NCBI GenBank assembly: GCA_002706095.1
Contig: PAJP01000001.1
Coordinates: 124,001-188,000, forward strand
DNA from: Methylophaga sp.
Lineage (GTDB): Bacteria > Pseudomonadota > Gammaproteobacteria > Nitrosococcales > Methylophagaceae
Direction: 5' to 3'
Length of the DNA stretch: 64,000 nt
The position numbers and the translations under genes were made by a program. The notes below the pieces were generated by a model. That model was not told where the DNA came from, did no database searches, and worked only from the letters and a program-made list of their open reading frames with translations. Positions 27,406 through 42,770 of the stretch are shown one piece after another. The stretch's first letter is position 1. The number at the start of each line of letters is the position of its first letter.

Positions 27406-28362
27406 TCAGTTACATTCAGTATTAGTTTTTTCACTTTCTTCTATACTAGAATAAGCTGCCAATTTATAGTTGTTTCTCCCACCACTCTTCACTTCATACA
27501 ATAAATCATCGGCTTTTTTTATAAATTGATTGATGGTGTGCTTGGTATCGTGTTTGTTGATGACGACACAGCCAAAACTCATCGTCACGTTGATGGATAT
27601 ATTGTTGTAACTATATTCGGATGAAGCAATCGCCTGACGTAGTCTTCTTAAAATAATGTCGGCTTCTGCCTCCGTTGCTTCACAATAAATTAAAAATTCT
27701 TCACCACCAAACCTGGCAGCAGTCTCGAACGGCCGAATGCTATTTCGCATACGATTGGATACATCGATTAATACGCGATCACCAATTTGATGACCGTAGG
27801 TATCATTAATGTGTTTAAAAAAATCAATATCAGCGATGATAAGACAATGACTGATCGATTTATCAGAACGGGCTAGTCTGGCAAGGTGTGTTTCGCAGGC
27901 TTTAATGGCAGCGCGTCTATTTAATAAGCCGGTCAACTCATCTGTATCGGCCAGTGATAAAAGCTTTTGTTGCATCTTAACAATACGCTCACCCACTCTT
28001 AATCGAGCGATAAATACGGCACCATGAATAGGCTTTTCAATAAAATCATCAGCCCCCACGTCTAGTGCTTTTTGTTCGATTTGACCAAAAGAGTTGGAGG
28101 TAATCATGATGATATATGGCGTGAGACTTAAGTTCAGCGCTATGATTTTCTGACATAGCTCCAGGCCATTGACTTCTGGCATCATCCAGTCAACAACAAT
28201 GATTTCCGGACTAGTGTCTCTGTTTGAGATAATTTCAATCGCTTGAGTGGCGTTATTGGCTATTAACGCATTCATACCTGCTTTTTGTACAAAGCTACTA
28301 GTCGTGATGCAATCGATATCATTGTCGTCAACAATCAGTACATGCATGTGCATTTTTTCCAT
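27406..28362 (-). CDS. Response regulator with active-looking GGDEF domain (diguanylate cyclase)
   Basis: The product has about 318 residues from the ATG at 28362; a TTG 12 codons earlier is possible and no good ribosome-binding site decides. The receiver domain has VLIVDDNDIDC and phospho-Asp in EIIVVDWMMPEVNG. The C-terminal GGDEF domain has DELTGLLNRRAA, IADIDFFKHINDTYGHQIGD and the intact active site RFGGEEF, so it should make c-di-GMP. The inhibitory RxxD site is not canonical (RPFE at that place). It is paired with the phosphodiesterase-type regulator downstream, an opposing enzyme pair under receiver control. Confidence 0.92.
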   Translation of the reverse strand: MEKMHMHVLIVDDNDIDCITTSSFVQKAGMNALIANNATQAIEIISNRDTSPEIIVVDWMMPEVNGLELCQKIIALNLSLTPYIIMITSNSFGQIEQKALDVGADDFIEKPIHGAVFIARLRVGERIVKMQQKLLSLADTDELTGLLNRRAAIKACETHLARLARSDKSISHCLIIADIDFFKHINDTYGHQIGDRVLIDVSNRMRNSIRPFETAARFGGEEFLIYCEATEAEADIILRRLRQAIASSEYSYNNISINVTMSFGCVVINKHDTKHTINQFIKKADDLLYEVKSGGRNNYKLAAYSSIEESEKTNTECN

Positions 28363-28546
28363 GACAGTGAATTTTGATACCAAGTTTCTACTTCTCAATC
28401 TTAACTATCAAGCCTTAATATTCATTTTTTATCAAATCCTATAGGATCAACACATCATTAAAATAATTTCTTCATAGATTGTTTTTTATGTCGATACATA
28501 AAAAATACCAACTCTGTTACTCTCAGTGCATAGCTAAGGGAAGATC

Positions 28547-29848: not shown

Positions 29849-32571
29849 GTAAATGGCATCAATCTACACTGATGAGTCAGCTTGGGATACGCAAGCGTGT
29901 CTTTATTGGTTTCGCCAGCCTTGCGTTGATTTCTTTGTTTATTGTCATTGTGAATTTATTTTCTCTGACAAATGTTGAAAAACTATTCAATGACTATACA
30001 AAGTCTATTTCTTATACACGGCTGATGTCTGAAGTCGAAGCAGATATTATTGAACTTAATCGAAAAATATTAGTATTTCGCATCACGGATAGTCAGTCAT
30101 CCATTACAGATATTCAACGATTATTAAAAAACCTACAAACGAGTATTCATAGTCTTTCTGTTTCATCGGAGTCCAGTGAGGAATCAGCTGCCATTTATCC
30201 CAAATTTACCGATTCACTTGAGAACCTCTACGAGAAAACGGCAAAATTGAATGATGAACGTTTGGTGTTAAAGCAGTTACATAGTCAACTGGAACAACAG
30301 TTTAGTTCTGTTTATGACATGCTCGACACCATGACAAAGCAACATAAGAAGTCTGAAGAAGTGATTTTATTGTATGAAATTCGTTCTTCGATCGCTTTTG
30401 CTCAGAATCAAATTATTCAATACTTTCAGAGCCGTACCAACAAAACGCGTTTAAATTTCGTTGACACATTTAATCAAGCAAAAACGGATATTGCTGTCTA
30501 TTCAGAGCTCGCTTCCACCTCTGAAAAAGAAAGACAATTAATCATTAATCTCAACAATCAACTTGATACCATCAAAAATACCTTCTTTCGTACGATTCAA
30601 GCAGATCGCAATTTTATTTTTCTGGTCAATGTGGTGATTGCAGGGGAAGCCTCTGAATTAAAAAGCCTGTCTGTGCAATTAAAAGATTATTCCATTGAGA
30701 GACAAACAGCACTTTTTAGTAGCACCAATAATAATCTGCAACTATATAAGTTTATCGCTTTTATCGGTTCCTTTTTTCTGATGGCCATCGCCCTCATGAT
30801 TTCTGGCAGGGTCAGTCGCGCTATCACGGTCCCCATTTCTGATATCAGTAAGACATTTGAAGATATCAGTTCTGGTCGAGAAACCTTATCTATTCCTGGT
30901 ATCGATCGGCATGATGAAATAGGTAAGTTAGCCCGATCGGCTACCTTATTTAAACAAAGTGCGGATGAAACAAAACGCCTCTTAAAAGAAACAGAAGAAT
31001 TAGCTGAAAAATTAAGTTTAAGAGAAGTGGAGCTGGAACTGTCTGCGAAGAAAGCAAATGCAGCCGCCGATGCAAAAAGTGCTTTTCTGGCGAATATGAG
31101 TCATGAGATAAGAACACCAATGAATGGCATCCTTGGCATGATTAATCTGCTAAGCGATACCCAACTTACGGAAAAACAACATCAGTTTGCCCACAACATT
31201 AAAATCAGTGCCGAATCATTGATGCGAATCATTAATGATATTCTGGATTATTCAAAAATTGAGTCTGGCAAGCTCTCTATTGAAGAAATGGCATTTAATT
31301 TAGAAAAACTGATTTCAGATATTGGCAGAGTGGTTGAACCCAATGCACATAATAAAGGCCTTCAAGTCCTCTGCCCTGCCAATGCAATTGAGAATGTACA
31401 AATTATTTCTGATCCAATTCGTCTCAGACAAATCCTGCTTAACCTGCTTTCTAACGCCGTCAAATTTACCGAAAATGGTTCAGTCGAACTCATGATTGAT
31501 ATCAAGTCAGTCGATGACAACAGCCTTAACCTTGATTTTTCTGTTATTGATACTGGCATCGGCATATCAGAAGAAGAGCTGACCAATTTATTTGAGCGGT
31601 TTAGCCAACTTGATTCAGCTTCAACCAGAAAAGCCGGTGGTACCGGTCTTGGGTTAGCTATCAGTGCTGAGTTAGTGAGCATGCTGGGAGGACAACTGGA
31701 AGTTGACTCAACTGTTGGGGCTGGCAGTCATTTTTATTTCACCATTACGGTGAAAAAAGATAAGGTTTTACCTCCTCGAGTACTGACCACAAAATTCACA
31801 CAATTTTTTGCCTATACCAGTAATGAAAAATTAAGCACCTATTTAGAAAGCTTATTTACTAAATGGGGAAATCATCTACATATCACCTCTTCATTACTGC
31901 TGATTGAGACAACGGTTCGAGAGGAAGATACCGATGTGGTGCTGATGGTTGATAGCGCCATGCTGAACCACATCAACGAAAATAAACTCAAACAACTCAA
32001 ATCCAAAAATATTAAGATTATTTTGCTGTCATCATTGGCAGATGATTTGAGTCGTTCACTGATAAGTGATTTATCAGATGTCACCGTGATCAAACCTATC
32101 AGTGCGTCAGAGTTATTTAATGCGAGCCGCTTATTATCAGAACAGCTTATCGAGCAACATGCACAACCTACTGCAGACACTGCTTCGTTACCCACCTTTT
32201 CATCAAGTAAGGTCCTTCTGGTTGAAGACGATGAAATCAACCAGATGGTGGCCAGCGGTATCCTCGCGAAATATGGAATGATGGCTGATATTGCAGAAAA
32301 TGGTGAAGTCGCTTTAAATAAACTGCGTGAGAAGCAATACGATATTGTCTTTATGGATTGTATGATGCCGGTCATGGATGGCTTTACCGCCACACAACAG
32401 CTTCGCTCAGGTCAGGCCGGGGAGTTCAATCTGTCGACCCCGGTTATCGCCCTCACAGCAGATGTGATGGAAGGTGTAAAAGAAAAATGTCTCTCAGCAG
32501 GTATGTCAGACTATTTAACCAAACCGATAATGCCCAATACCCTGTTAGATATGCTAAAAAAATGGCTTTAA
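29845..32571 (+). CDS. TorS-like hybrid sensor histidine kinase
   Basis: The 908-residue protein has TM1 (about 18-40), a helical periplasmic sensor (about 45-300), TM2 (about 302-322), HAMP, HisKA (NMSHEIRTPMNGILGM), HATPase (NLLSNAVKF, DTGIGISEEEL, GTGLGLAIS), a degenerate receiver-like segment (about 640-745) and a C-terminal receiver (VLLVEDDEINQMVA, phospho-Asp in DIVFMDCMMPVMDG). There is no Hpt domain, so phosphotransfer must continue to a separate protein. The helical periplasmic sensor and overlapping solute-binding protein gene resemble TorTS architecture. It overlaps the convergent kinase gene by four bases at its 3' end. Confidence 0.92.
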   Translation: MSKWHQSTLMSQLGIRKRVFIGFASLALISLFIVIVNLFSLTNVEKLFNDYTKSISYTRLMSEVEADIIELNRKILVFRITDSQSSITDIQRLLKNLQTSIHSLSVSSESSEESAAIYPKFTDSLENLYEKTAKLNDERLVLKQLHSQLEQQFSSVYDMLDTMTKQHKKSEEVILLYEIRSSIAFAQNQIIQYFQSRTNKTRLNFVDTFNQAKTDIAVYSELASTSEKERQLIINLNNQLDTIKNTFFRTIQADRNFIFLVNVVIAGEASELKSLSVQLKDYSIERQTALFSSTNNNLQLYKFIAFIGSFFLMAIALMISGRVSRAITVPISDISKTFEDISSGRETLSIPGIDRHDEIGKLARSATLFKQSADETKRLLKETEELAEKLSLREVELELSAKKANAAADAKSAFLANMSHEIRTPMNGILGMINLLSDTQLTEKQHQFAHNIKISAESLMRIINDILDYSKIESGKLSIEEMAFNLEKLISDIGRVVEPNAHNKGLQVLCPANAIENVQIISDPIRLRQILLNLLSNAVKFTENGSVELMIDIKSVDDNSLNLDFSVIDTGIGISEEELTNLFERFSQLDSASTRKAGGTGLGLAISAELVSMLGGQLEVDSTVGAGSHFYFTITVKKDKVLPPRVLTTKFTQFFAYTSNEKLSTYLESLFTKWGNHLHITSSLLLIETTVREEDTDVVLMVDSAMLNHINENKLKQLKSKNIKIILLSSLADDLSRSLISDLSDVTVIKPISASELFNASRLLSEQLIEQHAQPTADTASLPTFSSSKVLLVEDDEINQMVASGILAKYGMMADIAENGEVALNKLREKQYDIVFMDCMMPVMDGFTATQQLRSGQAGEFNLSTPVIALTADVMEGVKEKCLSAGMSDYLTKPIMPNTLLDMLKKWL

Positions 32572-34337
32572 TGATGGAGCATTTTTTCCATCAATAATCG
32601 TAATTGCACAGGTTTGATAGGCTTTTGTAGTCGTAAAAAGCCATGGTCTTTAATCTCATTAATCACAGACTCACTGGTGTCTCCGGTGATAATAATGGCT
32701 GATGTTTTTCCTATAATAGATTCAATATAAGAGACAAAAGCACAACCGTTGTAATCACCAGGCATCCTGTAGTCAACGAGTAGAAACTCGGGAGGAGCCT
32801 CTGATTTAATGGCTTCAATTGCCGCTTCTGTCGATGTATATGCGCGGCATTCACATCCCCAGCTATTGAGTAACTCAGTCATCGCCTCAACAATACTTAG
32901 CTCATTATCGACAATCATGACGTTAAGATTTTCTAATCTATTTTGACGCAGTGATAAGCTAGGTGTTGTAGCCCCTACAGCATTATTGTCTTCATCACTT
33001 AATGGCAGACATAAAATAATCTCTGTGCCCTTTCCTACTTCAGACTGTATATGGAAAGAGTGCTCAAGCAGATCCAGAATCCGACGAACGATGGCTAAGC
33101 CCAGTCCCAGCCCTTTTTGTCTGTTTCTTTCAGGATTGTGGAGCTGAACAAACTCATCAAAAATATCATTGAGCGAATCCTCAGGAATCCCAATACCGCT
33201 ATCGACAATATGCAAACGAATGTGTGTTTTATCTTTCTCAGAAAGGTAAACAGTGACGCCGCCTTGTTTTGTATAACGAATCGCATTCACTAATAAATTC
33301 GTTATCACCCGCTCTATTAATAAGGGATCAGTAAATACGTTATAAGACGCTGTTTGCATATCAAAACTAAGTTGATGTCTTGCAGCATCAATTTCAAATG
33401 GCGCTTTTATTTTTTCTAACAAACTGCCTATATCAAAGCTGACTTTATTGGCATGAACGATATCCGCATCCAGCCGAGAGATATCGAGCAATACATCCAA
33501 CAACTCATTTAATGACTGAAGGCCCTGTTGAATATTTTGAATATCTTGTTGTTGAGATGCTGATGTTAGTTTTTGACCGAGTAGCTCGGTGAATAAATTA
33601 ACGGCATGTAAAGGTTGACGTAAATCATGACTGGCAGAGGCTAGAAAGCGTGATTTATCACGATTGGCTTTATCAGCGACCTCTTTTTGTTCTTGTAGAT
33701 CGCGAATAAGGTCCAAGTTTTCATATTGTAATTTCAGTGACTGGACGATGACTTTATACAGGTTTAAACAAAAGGCAAATGTCGCAGCTAAATAGACAAT
33801 AGAGCCAAACCCCATCCAATTATAAAAATGCTCATCCTGAAACAGCATAATCAGGCTAAGAGGCAACATGGTAGGCAGAGAAAAAGCAGCATAAGCAACA
33901 GGTCTGGCAGAGAGTGAAGCCAAGCTGCCTGCCAGCATGCACACTAATGTCAAAATCACAAAGGCGATGTTAGAAATGTGCGCCGGATCAAAAAACAGGA
34001 TGCCCGCCGTCCCCCATATACAGCCAGAAAAAAAGGCTAATAAAATCTGGACTCTGCCATATTGGAAAACCTCTGTAGTCTGCGCTGTTTCAATATTTAA
34101 GCTTTGGTAATGCCACCATCTCACGATGATTAATAGATATAAGACAGTAAACCAGGCAATAGCGGCCAGCGAATACGATGTATTCTGCATGACGAGTGTG
34201 ATGGGGATGGCACCAAGTGCATTACCGATAAGGGTGGCGGGACAATTACGATGAGCAATCAGAATTTTTTCAATATCTATCTTTTGTTGATATCGCCCCA
34301 GATCAGTAGACGATTGTTGGTTAGTAAATCGAAACAT
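32568..34337 (-). CDS. Membrane hybrid histidine kinase with C-terminal receiver
   Basis: The 589-residue protein has about six N-terminal transmembrane helices (residues 35-205) without a periplasmic domain, a short coiled linker, HisKA (SASHDLRQPLHAVNLF), HATPase (NLLVNAIRYT, DSGIGIPEDSL, GLGLGLAIVRRIL) and a C-terminal receiver (VMIVDNELSIVEAM, phospho-Asp in FLLVDYRMPG). The sensing part resembles MASE-like helical modules that respond to membrane or cytoplasmic cues. Its start overlaps the stop of the NarL-type regulator by one base (TAATG), so the pair is co-translated. Confidence 0.92.
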   Translation of the reverse strand: MFRFTNQQSSTDLGRYQQKIDIEKILIAHRNCPATLIGNALGAIPITLVMQNTSYSLAAIAWFTVLYLLIIVRWWHYQSLNIETAQTTEVFQYGRVQILLAFFSGCIWGTAGILFFDPAHISNIAFVILTLVCMLAGSLASLSARPVAYAAFSLPTMLPLSLIMLFQDEHFYNWMGFGSIVYLAATFAFCLNLYKVIVQSLKLQYENLDLIRDLQEQKEVADKANRDKSRFLASASHDLRQPLHAVNLFTELLGQKLTSASQQQDIQNIQQGLQSLNELLDVLLDISRLDADIVHANKVSFDIGSLLEKIKAPFEIDAARHQLSFDMQTASYNVFTDPLLIERVITNLLVNAIRYTKQGGVTVYLSEKDKTHIRLHIVDSGIGIPEDSLNDIFDEFVQLHNPERNRQKGLGLGLAIVRRILDLLEHSFHIQSEVGKGTEIILCLPLSDEDNNAVGATTPSLSLRQNRLENLNVMIVDNELSIVEAMTELLNSWGCECRAYTSTEAAIEAIKSEAPPEFLLVDYRMPGDYNGCAFVSYIESIIGKTSAIIITGDTSESVINEIKDHGFLRLQKPIKPVQLRLLMEKMLHH

Positions 34338-34954
34338 TAATCCAAACCAAGTTGGTGAGCTTTTTTACCGGCTTCGCTACGGCTTTGTGTACCCAATGCT
34401 TGAAAAATGGCACTGACGTGTGATTTCACGGTTGGCATGCTTATCGAGAGCTGTTCAGCAATCGCCTGATTAGAGAATCCCTGCCTCATCAGCCTTAACA
34501 CTTCAAGCTGACGCTGGGTAAGATTGTGCTGACTCGCCCACTGCTCTGCTTTTGGTTTTAGCTTGTCCATGTCACTGTCTGGAAACACTTTCTGACCCAA
34601 CATCACTTGCTCGATGGTCTGAAGAATGGTCTCTCCTGATGACGACTTAGGAATAAAACTCATGGCACCGAGGTTAAAGGCAGTATCAATATCTATCGGA
34701 TCAGTCGATGCTGAAACAATAATAATCGGCACCAGACACGATGAATCCGATAAGGACGCTAACAACTGAAAGCCATCCATGATCGGCAAACGAAGATCAA
34801 TCAAGGCCACGTCATATTGTCCCGAACTTAACTTATCAAAGGCCTCTTTACCGTTATTGACAGTATCAATGATATCAATGCTATCTGCCTTGCTGAGTAA
34901 GGCTGATAAGCCATCTAAAAATAACTGATGGTCATCAACTAGTAATAGTTTCAC
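34337..34954 (-). CDS. NarL/LuxR-family response regulator
   Basis: The 205-residue protein starts with GTG. Receiver: LLLVDDHQLFLDGL with phospho-Asp in DVALIDLRLPIMDG. C-terminal LuxR-type helix-turn-helix: LTQRQLEVLRLMRQGFSNQA and SMPTVKSHVSAIFQALG. It is paired with the overlapping hybrid kinase. Target genes are unknown. Confidence 0.93.
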   Translation of the reverse strand: MKLLLVDDHQLFLDGLSALLSKADSIDIIDTVNNGKEAFDKLSSGQYDVALIDLRLPIMDGFQLLASLSDSSCLVPIIIVSASTDPIDIDTAFNLGAMSFIPKSSSGETILQTIEQVMLGQKVFPDSDMDKLKPKAEQWASQHNLTQRQLEVLRLMRQGFSNQAIAEQLSISMPTVKSHVSAIFQALGTQSRSEAGKKAHQLGLD

Positions 34955-35029: not shown

Positions 35030-35055
35030 AAAAGCCGTCATTAACGACGGCTTTT
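35030..35055 (-). terminator. Intrinsic terminator of the repeat-protein gene
   Basis: A perfect 10-bp stem AAAAGCCGTC / GACGGCTTTT has loop ATTAAC; on the minus strand the stem is followed by an eight-base T run. It lies 22 bases past the repeat protein's stop. Confidence 0.85.
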
Positions 35056-35076: not shown

Positions 35077-38000
35077 TTAACGTTGGCTCACACGACGGCG
35101 TATACCAATAAATCCCAGCAGTGCTGGTGCAAACAAGAAAATGGCTGCCGGTACGGGTACCGCACTGACACTTTCAGTAATCACCAGATTGGCAAAGGTA
35201 TCACCGAAGATCACATCAAAATCAAAGCCACTCATCAGCGGCAGAATGATGTTATCAAAACTGCCGACCAAGCTGCTGAAGGTCATGAAATTAAAGATCC
35301 CGGCTTTAAGTTCTGAACCGATAAAGTCAAAACTCAACACACCCGCTAGTGTCGCCACGCCATTCACAGCAAATACATCCGTGCTATTACCATCAAACTC
35401 GATATTCATTGCACCAAATGTACCTTGGGTGTAGTTGCCATTCACCGTCAGTTTACCGATAGAGTTACCTGGGGTCAGGCTGGCATAATCGCTATAGCTG
35501 GTGCCGTTCACGAACACATTGCTATTAATCACGCCGTGACCGTTCAAGTTACCGCCATTAATGTTGACGTTCTTTTGGGTCATGCTGCCATTTACTGTGG
35601 TACTGCCAGCGGTTTGAATAAACTCACCAGTGCCAGACACAATGTGGCCATCCGTCGTAATAAATTGACCAGAGTTGGTGATGATGCCGTTATTTTTCAG
35701 TGTCCCTTGATTAGATAAGACACCGGCATTCTCAATCGTTGCTTGGTTGTTGATCTCACCAAAGTTAGTGAAGTTACCGCTACTTTTATTGCTTATCTTT
35801 GAGGTATTTGATAGCGAACCAGTGGAGACATTGGTCAGTTTTCCTTCATTGGAGAGGCTATTTTTATTATACATAAGCCAGTGATTATTAAACTCACCGG
35901 TGTTAGTGATGACACCGTTATTCTCCATGGCCAGCGTATTGAACTCACCGGCATTAGCGAATGTGTTGTTGTTATAAAACTCCCCGGTATTATTAAAAAG
36001 CGCCCCCGTGTTATTCGTTATGCGACCTGCATTGGTGAGTCTATTATCGCTAATAAATCGACCGCTATTATTGATTTGGCCGGATGAAGCCACATTCAGA
36101 TCACCTGAGGTTGAGTTAGTCAGCTGACCGCTATTGCTCAGTACCCCCTCAACGATGAACTCATCGTTATTATTGAGCACGCCGGTATTATTGAGTGTTG
36201 CACCGACTTTATTTTTTAAGACAGAGGCATTAGTCAGTGTGCCAGCATTCTCAACGGTGCCGCTATTTACAAACACGCCAGTATTGACAATATTGCCTCC
36301 AGCCAGGTTTGTCACGGTAGCGAAGTTATTGAACGTACTGGTGTCATTATTATTTATCACACCAGTATTGGTAATGGTGTTTTCATTATCCAGCAGCCAA
36401 TAACTTGTCAGCGTGCCGGCATTGACAATAGTTCCGGTATTTTGAAGGCCGACAGAGTTAATTGCCCCATCACTATTCAAGGTGCCATTGTTAAAAAACT
36501 CTTCCGTGTTATTGATTGTGCCGTTAATCGCATTATTGATAACACCATAATTTATCAGCCGAGCGTCATTTGACAGCATTCCCCGATTTGTCATCGTGCC
36601 AGTGCTAGACAGTGTCATCTCAGCCGAACCGGTATTACTGATGTAATTGTAGTTAGTTAACTGGCCACTGGTTGAAAACGCACCCGTATTATTTATTTGT
36701 CGGTGATTAATCAAGGTGCCATTATTCGCTAAGGTACCTGAGTTATTCAGCGTGCCATCGTTCGTTAAAGTGCCGGAAGCACTGTTGGTGAATAAGGTTT
36801 CATTATCAAGCTGACTGTAATAGCTCATATTAAACTCACCTTCATTGGTGATGTTCGAGGGTGAATATTTTTGATTGAGCAATTTGCCCTTCAGGTTAAG
36901 GGTGCCATCAGATGTATTGATGAGGGTATTGACGTTAGTAAAGTCTGCATAGTCATCAATCAAAAACTGGCCGTTATTCATGACGCTGCCATTGATAAAT
37001 TCACCCTGAGCAATAAATTGGCCCTGATTATTGATAACTCCATAATTTGCCATTGTGGAATATAAGGTGGAGGTAAATGTGCCCTTATTGTTCAGAACAC
37101 CGCCATTGGCAAACACACCATTGTTGAGAAATTGCCCATTTTCGTTGTTATTAAAAGTGCCAGCATTAGCAAATTGACCACTATCTGAGTTAATCAAGTT
37201 ACCTGTATTATTGAGTGTGGCAATTGTGTTATTTCGGATAATGCCCTGATTGGTTAACGTACCACCTGCCTGATTACTGAGCGTACCATCGTTAGCAAAT
37301 TCACTGGTGTTTGAGTTAATCAATGCACCCGCATTGTTGAGAGTGCCTGTTGCGTTATTAGTGATAATGCCCTTATTGGTTAATGTAGCTCCTGCCCGAT
37401 TGCTGAGAGTGCCATCATTATTCAAACTCGCTGTTTCATCATTGACAAAACTAGCGTTATCCTTGTTGTTAAATGTGCTGTGTTCTTGATTATTGAAAAT
37501 AGAGTGATTATTTACAACACCATTTGATTGATTACTAAAGCCGCTAGCATTGTTAAATGTCGAACCGCTATTATTATTGAGTATGCCATTATTAATGAAT
37601 GCAGCCGACTTAGTATTATTCATGATGGCATTATTGTTTATCGTGCCATTGTTAGTGAGCCTGCCAACCCTGTATCCGCCTGAGTATGTCTTTCCAGATG
37701 TATTGCTAAATGTGGCGAAAGTATTATCAATTACACCTGTGTTGGTAAATGTTCCATATGTTTCAAATGATTTGTTATTGAGTATTTGTCCGTTGTTATT
37801 GAAATTACCTTCGTTGGCAACACTACCGTCGTTTCTGAATAGTCCATCATTAACGACCAAGCCAGAACTCAAATTATAGAAAATATTGTGGCTTGTAAAA
37901 ATACCCGTGAGTTCATTATGAAAGCCATTGTTTCCTGACCCTGACCTATTGTAAAAATTGCCACTTTCTACTGTGCCAAGATTAATAAATTTACTATTAC

Positions 38001-38529
38001 CATTATTATAAATACTGGCTTTGAGGCCGCTCATTGTCCCCTTAGATAAAATTCGAATTGTACCTTCGTTGTCTATCCTATTTCCTACTCCCCATTGACC
38101 ATTACTAGAAATGTAACCTTTCTTATTGATAAGCTTATCAGTAATAAATCGAGAATTAGTGGCATTTAGGATATCTCCATAATAGTTCTTAAGCATCCCC
38201 TTTCCACTATCAAATTCACTGTTGTTTTCTATTACGCCATAGTTATTTATCTCACCACGATTATCTATTTTGCCTTTGTTAAAGACTGTTCCTGACTTAA
38301 GATTATCGAAATGACTCTTTCCAGACAGGCTAAGCGATCCAGCATCATCAACAGTCAACTTACTGGCATTCTCAAAATTCTTTGCGATATAACCATCACT
38401 AACTCTGATTGGGGATGTGTTTGTGCCATCTAGTTGTGTAGAAGCATGCACAACTGACGACGCCAGTAAAAATGAGCTGCACAGCAACGTAGTAGAGAGC
38501 GACAGAAACTGTCGTTGTTTATTTATCAT
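35077..38529 (-). CDS. Giant Asn/Gly-repeat surface protein with PEP-CTERM-like sorting signal
   Basis: The product has about 1150 residues from the ATG at 38529; a GTG three bases earlier is possible. It has a Sec signal peptide (LSTTLLCSSFLLASSVVHAS), then about 900 residues of imperfect short repeats of the form N-x-G-x-hydrophobic-x-N (for example NNGTLINHRQINNTGAFS). These suggest a parallel beta-solenoid. After residue about 990 comes a non-repetitive region with SYSDYASLTPGNSIGKLTV, as at the base of autotransporter passengers. The C-terminus VPVPAAIFLFAPALLGFIG plus IRRR is a PEP-CTERM/VPLPA-type sorting tail. Probably surface-anchored adhesin or matrix protein (inference). A c-di-GMP riboswitch candidate precedes it. 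Confidence 0.85.
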   Translation of the reverse strand: MINKQRQFLSLSTTLLCSSFLLASSVVHASTQLDGTNTSPIRVSDGYIAKNFENASKLTVDDAGSLSLSGKSHFDNLKSGTVFNKGKIDNRGEINNYGVIENNSEFDSGKGMLKNYYGDILNATNSRFITDKLINKKGYISSNGQWGVGNRIDNEGTIRILSKGTMSGLKASIYNNGNSKFINLGTVESGNFYNRSGSGNNGFHNELTGIFTSHNIFYNLSSGLVVNDGLFRNDGSVANEGNFNNNGQILNNKSFETYGTFTNTGVIDNTFATFSNTSGKTYSGGYRVGRLTNNGTINNNAIMNNTKSAAFINNGILNNNSGSTFNNASGFSNQSNGVVNNHSIFNNQEHSTFNNKDNASFVNDETASLNNDGTLSNRAGATLTNKGIITNNATGTLNNAGALINSNTSEFANDGTLSNQAGGTLTNQGIIRNNTIATLNNTGNLINSDSGQFANAGTFNNNENGQFLNNGVFANGGVLNNKGTFTSTLYSTMANYGVINNQGQFIAQGEFINGSVMNNGQFLIDDYADFTNVNTLINTSDGTLNLKGKLLNQKYSPSNITNEGEFNMSYYSQLDNETLFTNSASGTLTNDGTLNNSGTLANNGTLINHRQINNTGAFSTSGQLTNYNYISNTGSAEMTLSSTGTMTNRGMLSNDARLINYGVINNAINGTINNTEEFFNNGTLNSDGAINSVGLQNTGTIVNAGTLTSYWLLDNENTITNTGVINNNDTSTFNNFATVTNLAGGNIVNTGVFVNSGTVENAGTLTNASVLKNKVGATLNNTGVLNNNDEFIVEGVLSNSGQLTNSTSGDLNVASSGQINNSGRFISDNRLTNAGRITNNTGALFNNTGEFYNNNTFANAGEFNTLAMENNGVITNTGEFNNHWLMYNKNSLSNEGKLTNVSTGSLSNTSKISNKSSGNFTNFGEINNQATIENAGVLSNQGTLKNNGIITNSGQFITTDGHIVSGTGEFIQTAGSTTVNGSMTQKNVNINGGNLNGHGVINSNVFVNGTSYSDYASLTPGNSIGKLTVNGNYTQGTFGAMNIEFDGNSTDVFAVNGVATLAGVLSFDFIGSELKAGIFNFMTFSSLVGSFDNIILPLMSGFDFDVIFGDTFANLVITESVSAVPVPAAIFLFAPALLGFIGIRRRVSQR

Positions 38530-38551
38530 CACTCGGATTCCTTGCGTTTGT

Positions 38552-38623
38552 GCAACCCAGCCACCTTGTTAAACAACAAGGCCTGTGGCTTTCCGTCCCT
38601 GATTCACACCAAGTTTGGCCGAT
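38552..38623 (-). ncRNA. Candidate cyclic-di-GMP-I (GEMM) riboswitch in the 5' leader of the repeat-protein gene
   Basis: Read on the minus strand, the leader contains GGCCAAAC, a small hairpin (CTTG to CAGG), then GGGACGGAAAGCCACAGG. A second hairpin follows (CCTTGTT-GTTT-AACAAGG), then GGTGGCTGGGTTGC. This order matches the GEMM aptamer: CAAA, P2, GGGACGCAAAGCC, P3, GGUAGCNGGGUU. One core base differs (ACGGAAAG for ACGCAAAG). The 3' end is 19-22 bases from the start codon, and its TTGC can pair with GCAA next to the AAGGA ribosome-binding site, which would allow translational control. The window also encodes several GGDEF/EAL proteins. Confidence 0.75.
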
Positions 38624-38707
38624 TAAATAACACGCCGATCATAATGAAATGGGGTTATAGCGACTATCAGCCAAAAGTATGATTTTGTGAGAAAAATAAA
38701 TAAGCAA

Positions 38708-38732
38708 TAAAAAAGGGAGTCACTGACTCCCT
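38708..38732 (-). terminator. Intrinsic terminator of the EF-hand gene
   Basis: On the minus strand GGGAGTCAGTGACTCCC (perfect palindrome) is followed by TTTTTT. It lies 26 bases past the EF-hand stop. Confidence 0.85.
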
Positions 38733-38757
38733 TCTAAATATGGTGTGATAAGAGAAA

Positions 38758-39057
38758 TTAACTTTCTTTCTTATCTTTGCAGGATGGGCGTTTATCACCC
38801 TTATGTTTTTTATGGGCCGCTGCGGCTTCTTCCTTGGTCACCTTGCCATCAGCATTAGTATCCATTTTTTCGAAGCGTTTTAATGCTGCCGCTGTGGCTT
38901 CCTCTTTTGTAATAACACCATCACCGTTGCTGTCGATATGAGCGAAATATCCTTTTTTATCATGTTTAGCCATATCGTCAGTTGATGCTGGTTCAGCGAA
39001 TGTCACTGTGCTCATTGCCATCGCGGCTAATACTGAAAAAAGTGCTGTTTTCATCAT
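38758..39057 (-). CDS. Exported EF-hand calcium-binding protein
   Basis: The 99-residue protein has a signal peptide (ALFSVLAAMAMSTVTFA) and two EF-hand loops, DSNGDGVITKEE and DTNADGKVTKEE, each with the Asp/Asn ligands and the terminal Glu that bind calcium. The tail is Lys-rich with one Cys. The first of two tandem ATGs is used; the second (39054) has better spacing from GAGGG. Probably a periplasmic calcium binder; partner unknown. It is monocistronic with its own terminator. Confidence 0.88.
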   Translation of the reverse strand: MMKTALFSVLAAMAMSTVTFAEPASTDDMAKHDKKGYFAHIDSNGDGVITKEEATAAALKRFEKMDTNADGKVTKEEAAAAHKKHKGDKRPSCKDKKES

Positions 39058-41855: not shown

Positions 41856-42770
41856 TCAGATGGCAGGTGCAGCTGTTTGTTTACGCTGGCTAAGAAGTTG
41901 ATTTAATCGTTTAATTAACGAATCAGAATCATCCCTTTTTGCCATGGTAATGGCGGTCGTCGCTGTTAAATAGACACGCTGCTGTGATTCCTGTGTACGG
42001 TAAGCAAAACTGGCTACCGCATGTTGCAGATCATGACTCAGCTGTTTTGCTTCAGCCTCATCGGTGTCATGTAAGATGATAACGAAACGGTCGCCAGCCA
42101 AGCGACAGATCAAATCCTTATCACGCAGGTTTAACAGTAATAGCTGACAGACCAGCTGGAGGATGTGATCGCCCTCTTTTATGCCATACAAGCGATTAAT
42201 CACATTGAAATCATCAAGATCAATCGCGATGAGCGCCAATGGTTGTTGCTGTTTTTTACTCTCTGCCAAGGATAGCTTGAGCTGTTTTTTTAAATAAGCG
42301 CCGCCGCCAACAGGCATAAGCTTGTCAAACAAACGGTGCTCGCGAAAATACCGTTCACGTTTTACCATTTGAGCACTGATAGCAATTTCTTCCTGATGCC
42401 AATGATAGATACCAATACTTAATAATATTAAGGCAATCGGTATCGGCATACTTTCAAGCCAGTTGTGCCAGATTAAGGTTGATGGCATACGAATGAACTC
42501 ATCCATAAAGTCCATCGACCAGGAAAAAACAATGGCGCATAAACCAAATGCCAACAGCCGCGTTACTCTGCCTGCAGGTCGACTCCGCAGTAATAAGGCC
42601 AACCAGAAAAAGGCTAGGATCACCATGCCGCCCTCTGACATAACATCCAACCAGTTCACCTCGGTTATCGGCTTTACATCACCCCATGCTCGTAAAATGA
42701 GGGTCCCGGAAACAATGGCTGTCGCCAAGCCATAAAAATAAGAAGTCTGTAAAAACGGTCGTTTTTTCAT
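41856..42770 (-). CDS. Membrane protein with degenerate GGDEF domain
   Basis: The 304-residue protein has about four transmembrane helices in residues 10-125 and a C-terminal GGDEF fold (IAIDLDDFNVINRLYGIKEGD). The active-site motif is RLAGDRF in place of RxGGDEF, so diguanylate cyclase activity is doubtful and a c-di-GMP or GTP sensing role is possible. It is the first gene of an operon with an AraC regulator. A Pho-box-like site on its strand lies 62 bases upstream of the ATG, divergent from the TonB-receptor Pho box. Confidence 0.85.
   Translation of the reverse strand: MKKRPFLQTSYFYGLATAIVSGTLILRAWGDVKPITEVNWLDVMSEGGMVILAFFWLALLLRSRPAGRVTRLLAFGLCAIVFSWSMDFMDEFIRMPSTLIWHNWLESMPIPIALILLSIGIYHWHQEEIAISAQMVKRERYFREHRLFDKLMPVGGGAYLKKQLKLSLAESKKQQQPLALIAIDLDDFNVINRLYGIKEGDHILQLVCQLLLLNLRDKDLICRLAGDRFVIILHDTDEAEAKQLSHDLQHAVASFAYRTQESQQRVYLTATTAITMAKRDDSDSLIKRLNQLLSQRKQTAAPAI

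Follow-up and report, generated by a model that had tools for sequence, protein, structure and literature searches.

How does a protein built like the passenger of an autotransporter come to end in a sorting-type tail, and what governs its production? The question is raised by a long gene in the window (the whole 64-kb stretch of Methylophaga sp. DNA analysed here), which codes for an Asn/Gly-rich repeat protein that carries an autotransporter-like base. The organism is a marine bacterium that lives on methanol.

Architecture and fold of the solenoid protein

The open reading frame runs from 38529 to the stop at 35077 on the minus strand; ATG at 38529 is the more likely start and GTG at 38532 a possible one, so the protein has 1150 or 1151 residues. 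An earlier, sequence-only reading had placed it correctly at 35077-38529, omitting the strand. A signal peptide is followed by about 970 residues of Asn/Gly repeats, the base SLTPGNSIGKLTV and the tail VPVPAAIFLFAPALLGFIGIRRR, without a β-barrel. The features of the locus are:

38711..38735, minus: terminator-like hairpin ending the preceding small gene, the upstream edge of the unit (consensus scan, 11 pairs)
38548..38629, minus: aptamer of a c-di-GMP-I riboswitch (RF01051), within the solenoid gene's leader (57.2 bits against a gathering score of 35, E 1.5e-8)
38539..38543, minus: Shine-Dalgarno sequence AAGGA between aptamer and start codon (read from the sequence)
35077..38529, minus: gene of the putative solenoid surface protein, 1150 aa plus stop, with orthologs in four other genomes
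38443..38529, minus: predicted signal peptide, residues 1-29 (by eye: a hydrophobic stretch, then VHA; a helix in the model)
35515..38439, minus: Asn/Gly β-solenoid, residues 31-1005 (repeat statistics, allele alignment, structure model)
about residues 30-470, minus: outer part of the solenoid, the divergent allele
35443..35481, minus: autotransporter-like base motif SLTPGNSIGKLTV, residues 1017-1029 (identity to a barrel-bearing autotransporter)
35092..35160, minus: sorting tail VPVPAAIFLFAPALLGFIGIRRR, residues 1124-1146 (TIGR02595 on the isolated tail; common to 18 strong tail proteins)
35034..35048, minus: terminator-like hairpin with T-run 3' of the solenoid gene (consensus scan)

The terminator-like hairpins on both sides of the gene suggest that it forms a single-gene unit. 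Within the protein there are 42 copies of the motif N-x-G-x-[ILVFM]-x-N, where shuffles have 1.2 (maximum 5), which bears out the N-x-G-x-hydrophobic-x-N solenoid of the sequence-only reading. Between residues 31 and 990, 20% of the positions are Asn and 12% Gly, and the autocorrelation of sequence identity has its maxima, above those of the shuffles, at lags 6, 14, 12 and 20. Structure prediction, proposed earlier as a check on the repeats, gives a long β-solenoid: the AlphaFold2 model (eight homologs) is continuous over residues ~40-1005, with a mean pLDDT of 76.7 and a pTM of 0.56, blocks of pLDDT 80-95 along most repeats, and low confidence in the C-terminal 120 residues. The model of a 462-residue paralog shows the same kind of strands with pLDDT up to 98, and its C-terminal 120 residues are likewise of low confidence.

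A sequence search against solved structures gave no match for the protein, and the Foldseek top matches of its model are antigen 43 and TibA. Alignment with VIA-align gave a Z of 19.5 for TibA (rmsd 2.9, 249 residues) and of 18.3 for antigen 43b (rmsd 4.9, 300 residues); the TpsA adhesin EtpA reached a Z of 15.7-17, a resemblance of fold even though a TPS domain was not found. A Pfam scan of the whole protein showed neither a β-barrel (PF03797) nor a TPS domain at E<=1, while control autotransporters scored 156-211 bits in the PF03797 test. The base and a sorting-type tail in place of a barrel, as the sequence-only reading had described them, are thus both present. The protein shares with the self-associating autotransporters antigen 43 and TibA, its nearest solved folds, a predicted Asn/Thr-rich β-helix passenger and a base region with homologs in other autotransporters; unlike them, it lacks the β-barrel and has an exosortase tail as its presumed anchor. 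Set against a classical (type Va) autotransporter, the β-helix passenger and the PGNSxGxLTV base are here and the PF03797 barrel is absent. Antigen 43 associates with itself head to tail through hydrogen bonds, many of them formed by Asn and Thr (PMC8993888); by analogy of modelled fold and composition, we propose that the solenoid protein may stick homotypically.

The solenoid is not equally conserved along its length. A second genome of this species (G065) carries an allele of 1112 residues. In alignment columns 1-400 its amino-acid identity is 0.39-0.68 and, where the residue is conserved, the identity of third codon positions is 0.42-0.64; beyond column 500 both lie at 0.83-1.0. As silent sites have diverged as well, the pattern fits the replacement of one allele by another, long separated from it, better than rapid point change, and the membrane-distal half thus looks like an exchanged allele. 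With the C-terminus as the anchor, this half would be outermost.

The sorting tail, XrtD and a passenger base with two anchors

The C-terminal tail reads VPVPAAIFLFAPALLGFIGIRRRVSQR. Scanned alone, it scores 17.4 bits against the PEP_CTERM model TIGR02595, over the cut-off of 16, but 17.3 bits against VPLPA-CTERM (TIGR03370), under the cut-off of 25.35, and 16.8 bits against PF07589, under 20.7; of the two kinds of tail model suggested for checking, the isolated tail thus reaches PEP-CTERM in TIGR02595 and does not reach VPLPA-CTERM. These models are seen only when the tail is scanned by itself, and family scans of the whole protein missed them. The signal used here is a variant, SxVPVPAAxFLFAPALLGFxGLRRK, and a profile built from 14 of the genome's tails picks out 18 proteins with a strong tail match and a further, weak one, in line with the exosortase-type tail of the sequence-only reading. 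The tail is thus common to several secreted proteins that are otherwise unrelated.

The search of the genome for an exosortase, also suggested there, found a single one, XrtD, on another contig (TIGR04152, 557.7 bits, cut-off 400). A tail without a match in a genome without an exosortase had been named as the outcome that would speak against sorting; this is not what the genome shows, XrtD being present. XrtD is the VPLPA-CTERM-specific exosortase, and its locus holds exopolysaccharide genes, including glycosyltransferases, and a TPR lipoprotein (glycosyltransferases and lipoprotein named by eye). Like other XrtD substrates (TIGR03370, TIGR02595, TIGR04152), the solenoid protein has a signal peptide, a C-terminal VPxPA-hydrophobic-RRR tail and a cognate XrtD in its own genome, beside exopolysaccharide genes; unlike VPLPA-CTERM substrates, it stays below the cut-off of their model, its tail being a variant with FLFAPALLGF. 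It is also much longer than the genome's other riboswitch-linked substrates, most of which have 160-260 aa. Judged from these sequence features, it is a predicted exosortase (XrtD) substrate. In one genome of the family that lacks XrtD (G027), the tail matches that remain fall in reading frames that are short or interrupted by stops (C1:60257, C12:49084, C16:341470, C18:117001), as if substrates decay once the exosortase is lost.

Over ~100 residues the base region shares 42% identity with an autotransporter of Cupriavidus that has PF03797 and PATR; together with the best matches of the model, TibA and antigen 43, this agrees with the autotransporter-style passenger noticed earlier. A profile of base plus tail recovers seven stretches of like layout in other XrtD-positive gammaproteobacteria: two each in G133 and G141 (one of the latter read only in part) and one each in G172, G132 and G294. 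The complete proteins among them have 535-1575 residues, one with 21% Asn; Pfam shows no barrel in the six of seven that were scanned, and no c-di-GMP riboswitch was found near any of the seven. Four other proteins that carry the base end in PF03797 barrels. Since the base occurs both with tails and with barrels, the same passenger base joins either anchor. The earlier remark that the protein mixes two systems was therefore right, but the mixture is not a one-off. As to more distant relatives, the C-terminal 207 residues gave no match in phages, and plasmid relatives were considered and dropped, the matches being weak autotransporter passengers.

One could regard the protein instead as a degenerate autotransporter that has lost its β-barrel, so that the hydrophobic C-terminus with RRR would be a chance membrane anchor and not a sorting signal. 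The homology of its base to that of barrel-bearing autotransporters is what such a history would leave behind, but the tail is common to 17 other proteins of the genome, the base and tail recur together in other XrtD-positive genomes, and the gene is intact across several species with riboswitch and synteny conserved. In M. aminisulfidivorans, which with M. sulfidovorans is the nearest annotated relative, the gene order is identical: cysteine desulfurase-like gene, solenoid, response regulator, hybrid histidine kinase. This conservation already contradicts degeneration, which we regard as highly improbable. An autotransporter-type passenger base can, we conclude, be joined to a barrel or to an exosortase tail.

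The riboswitch and its regulon in the Methylophagaceae

Control by c-di-GMP, which the sequence-only reading had put forward, is supported at the sequence level by a class I c-di-GMP riboswitch directly upstream of the gene, its 3' end 15 nt ahead of the GTG. It is the single RNA that reaches the gathering score in the 64-kb window (Rfam), and a consensus scan showed no terminator between aptamer and solenoid start. In M. aminisulfidivorans and M. sulfidovorans the aptamer lies in the same place with an equal or nearly equal score. The cmscan alignment shows that the ligand-contact G and C are kept at the positions equivalent to Vc2 G20 and C92, and the G is kept in 100/100 family leaders listed; G20 is the base that separates c-di-GMP from cGAMP.

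Other genes of interest lie nearby on the minus strand. Two GGDEF-type proteins (41856-42770 and 27406-28398, by eye) are possible sources of c-di-GMP. At 32568-34954, after the terminator of the solenoid gene, a response regulator of LuxR type is paired with a hybrid histidine kinase resembling NahK/ErcS (NF041832, 330 bits, cut-off 400), and the two may regulate the locus. Just upstream of the riboswitch, at ~38759-39057, is a small secreted protein whose motifs DSNGDG and DTNADG resemble EF-hands (by eye).

The genome has 14 c-di-GMP-I riboswitches, and all 14 lie directly upstream of a secreted tail-bearing protein; the chance of such a match is ~1e-35 for ~3,300 genes, a gene number that we assumed. 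No riboswitch is detectable ahead of the remaining four of the 18 strong tail genes (C17, two on C10, C12), even at a lax threshold. The other riboswitch-linked proteins have mostly 160-260 residues, and one of ten scanned had a non-tail Pfam match, weak and below cut-off. The XrtD-positive Methylophagaceae together have 99 riboswitches, of which 95 precede a tail gene, three run off the contig and one is an exception, that is, 95/96 where the downstream gene is complete; the exception (L151, G032:C16:41925-42012) is followed immediately by a terminator-like hairpin, AAACCTGCCAATGGCAGGTTT, and a T-run. Across 35 genomes of the family, XrtD and riboswitch occur together in 17, neither in 14, XrtD alone in 1 and riboswitch alone in 3; the p of 4e-6 for this co-occurrence overstates independence because the genomes are related.

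A Gammaproteobacteria-wide link between riboswitch and XrtD was considered and rejected. Outside the Methylophagaceae the riboswitch is found in 12/41 XrtD-positive against 53/324 other genomes (p 0.05), and 4/17 riboswitches in the XrtD-positive ones precede a VPxPA tail. The strict link is thus a feature of the Methylophagaceae. Four c-di-GMP-I riboswitches, in G169, G206, G262 and G416:C7 (L234, L235, L236 and L245), precede VPxPA-tail proteins in unrelated XrtD-positive gammaproteobacteria, so the link may have more than one origin.

This pattern is already known in part. In M. nitratireducenticrescens GP59, four of seven c-di-GMP riboswitches adjoin PEP-CTERM genes (PMC12530212, 2025); riboswitch class, downstream gene kind and genus are the same as here, but the observation covers one strain, with no solenoid noted, and is extended here to 14/14 in our genome and 95/96 across the XrtD-positive family. 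Closely matching coordinates of most riboswitches identify one of our genomes (G007) as GP59 or a near sister, and in it 6/6 riboswitches found precede a tail gene, including one listed as thrombospondin (PMC12530212). A literature search gave no paper naming both Methylophaga and exosortase. Among sorted surface proteins, the presumed adhesins CD2831 and CD3246 of Clostridioides difficile offer a parallel, since they too are under riboswitch control (PMC6366702); there the riboswitches are of class II and act by transcription termination, and the sorting is by a peptidoglycan sortase in a Gram-positive cell; in Methylophaga the class is I, the mechanism probably translational, the enzyme an exosortase and the cell Gram-negative.

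Switch direction and the proposed role

We believe the riboswitch to be quite likely an ON switch, with the protein made at high c-di-GMP. In short leaders, and in that class only, the complementarity between the 3' edge of the aptamer and the SD-start stretch is above all 200 swaps, if narrowly, so that the Shine-Dalgarno sequence would be hidden without ligand. The direction also agrees with a related strain, in which 10/11 riboswitch transcripts (all riboswitch kinds) and 3/4 of those adjoining PEP-CTERM genes are higher in biofilm (PMC12530212), and with Vc1, upstream of a V. cholerae adhesin gene, which is ON (PMC4744006). An OFF switch, by which c-di-GMP would lower production and the protein would belong to the motile or dispersing state, is known for this class, all seven functional class I riboswitches of C. 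difficile being OFF (PMC6366702), and the fourth PEP-CTERM-adjoining transcript is higher in planktonic cells (PMC12530212). Folding-energy models, tried as a test of direction and rejected, do not separate ON from OFF: modelled SD accessibility is 0.54 without and 0.55 with ligand, little different from the swapped controls (0.49 and 0.52). The biofilm transcripts, the complementary aptamer edge and the Vc1 precedent all speak against OFF, which we consider rather unlikely.

From the riboswitch, the solenoid model, the tail, XrtD and the regulon-wide link, all computed here, we infer the following course for an ON switch. When c-di-GMP is high, it would bind the leader's class I riboswitch, thereby exposing the ribosome-binding site, and a large Methylophaga surface adhesin would be made. 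The signal peptide would direct it to the periplasm, where it would fold into a long Asn-ladder β-solenoid while the C-terminal helix holds it in the inner membrane; XrtD would then recognise the VPxPA signal and process it. Once across the outer membrane, the processed protein would join the cell surface or the exopolysaccharide matrix, its variable N-terminal half outermost, and would most likely make cells stick to one another or to the matrix, in the manner of antigen 43 and TibA. The sequence-only reading was correct on every main point. Its "fibre or adhesin" thus gains its c-di-GMP control from the riboswitch, while adhesion itself is argued from fold.

With control and sorting unchanged, the protein might instead be a matrix scaffold, an exosortase-processed structural component that ties exopolysaccharide to the cell and does not associate with itself. 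The position of XrtD among exopolysaccharide genes would suit this, as would PepA of flocs, with which more polymer is bound and less released (PMC9850573), and the proposal that PEP-CTERM proteins, including cyanobacterial ones, fasten polysaccharide to the surface of the cell (PMC12188702). The nearest folds, however, are those of self-associating adhesins, although fold alone does not show function, and we hold the scaffold to be a minority possibility. Our preferred reading, to which we give somewhat better than even credence, is a c-di-GMP-controlled, exosortase-processed β-helix adhesin that belongs to a riboswitch regulon common to the family.

The dedication of riboswitches to exosortase substrates throughout the family is a weightier result than the solenoid protein alone. 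We suggest, with some confidence, that c-di-GMP-I riboswitches, up to 14 per cell, are devoted essentially entirely to exosortase substrates, and that c-di-GMP, acting on mRNA leaders, sets the greater part of the sorted surface proteome. Sortase adhesins under riboswitch control would then have a Gram-negative counterpart, in which a self-associating β-helix relies on an exosortase and not on a barrel. The attachment target and function of exosortase substrates, and their route across the outer membrane, are largely open in the field (PMC12188702). As Methylophaga has a defined substrate set under one signal, a change in c-di-GMP should switch the set together, and the function and fate of exosortase substrates thus become directly testable in Methylophaga through the level of c-di-GMP.
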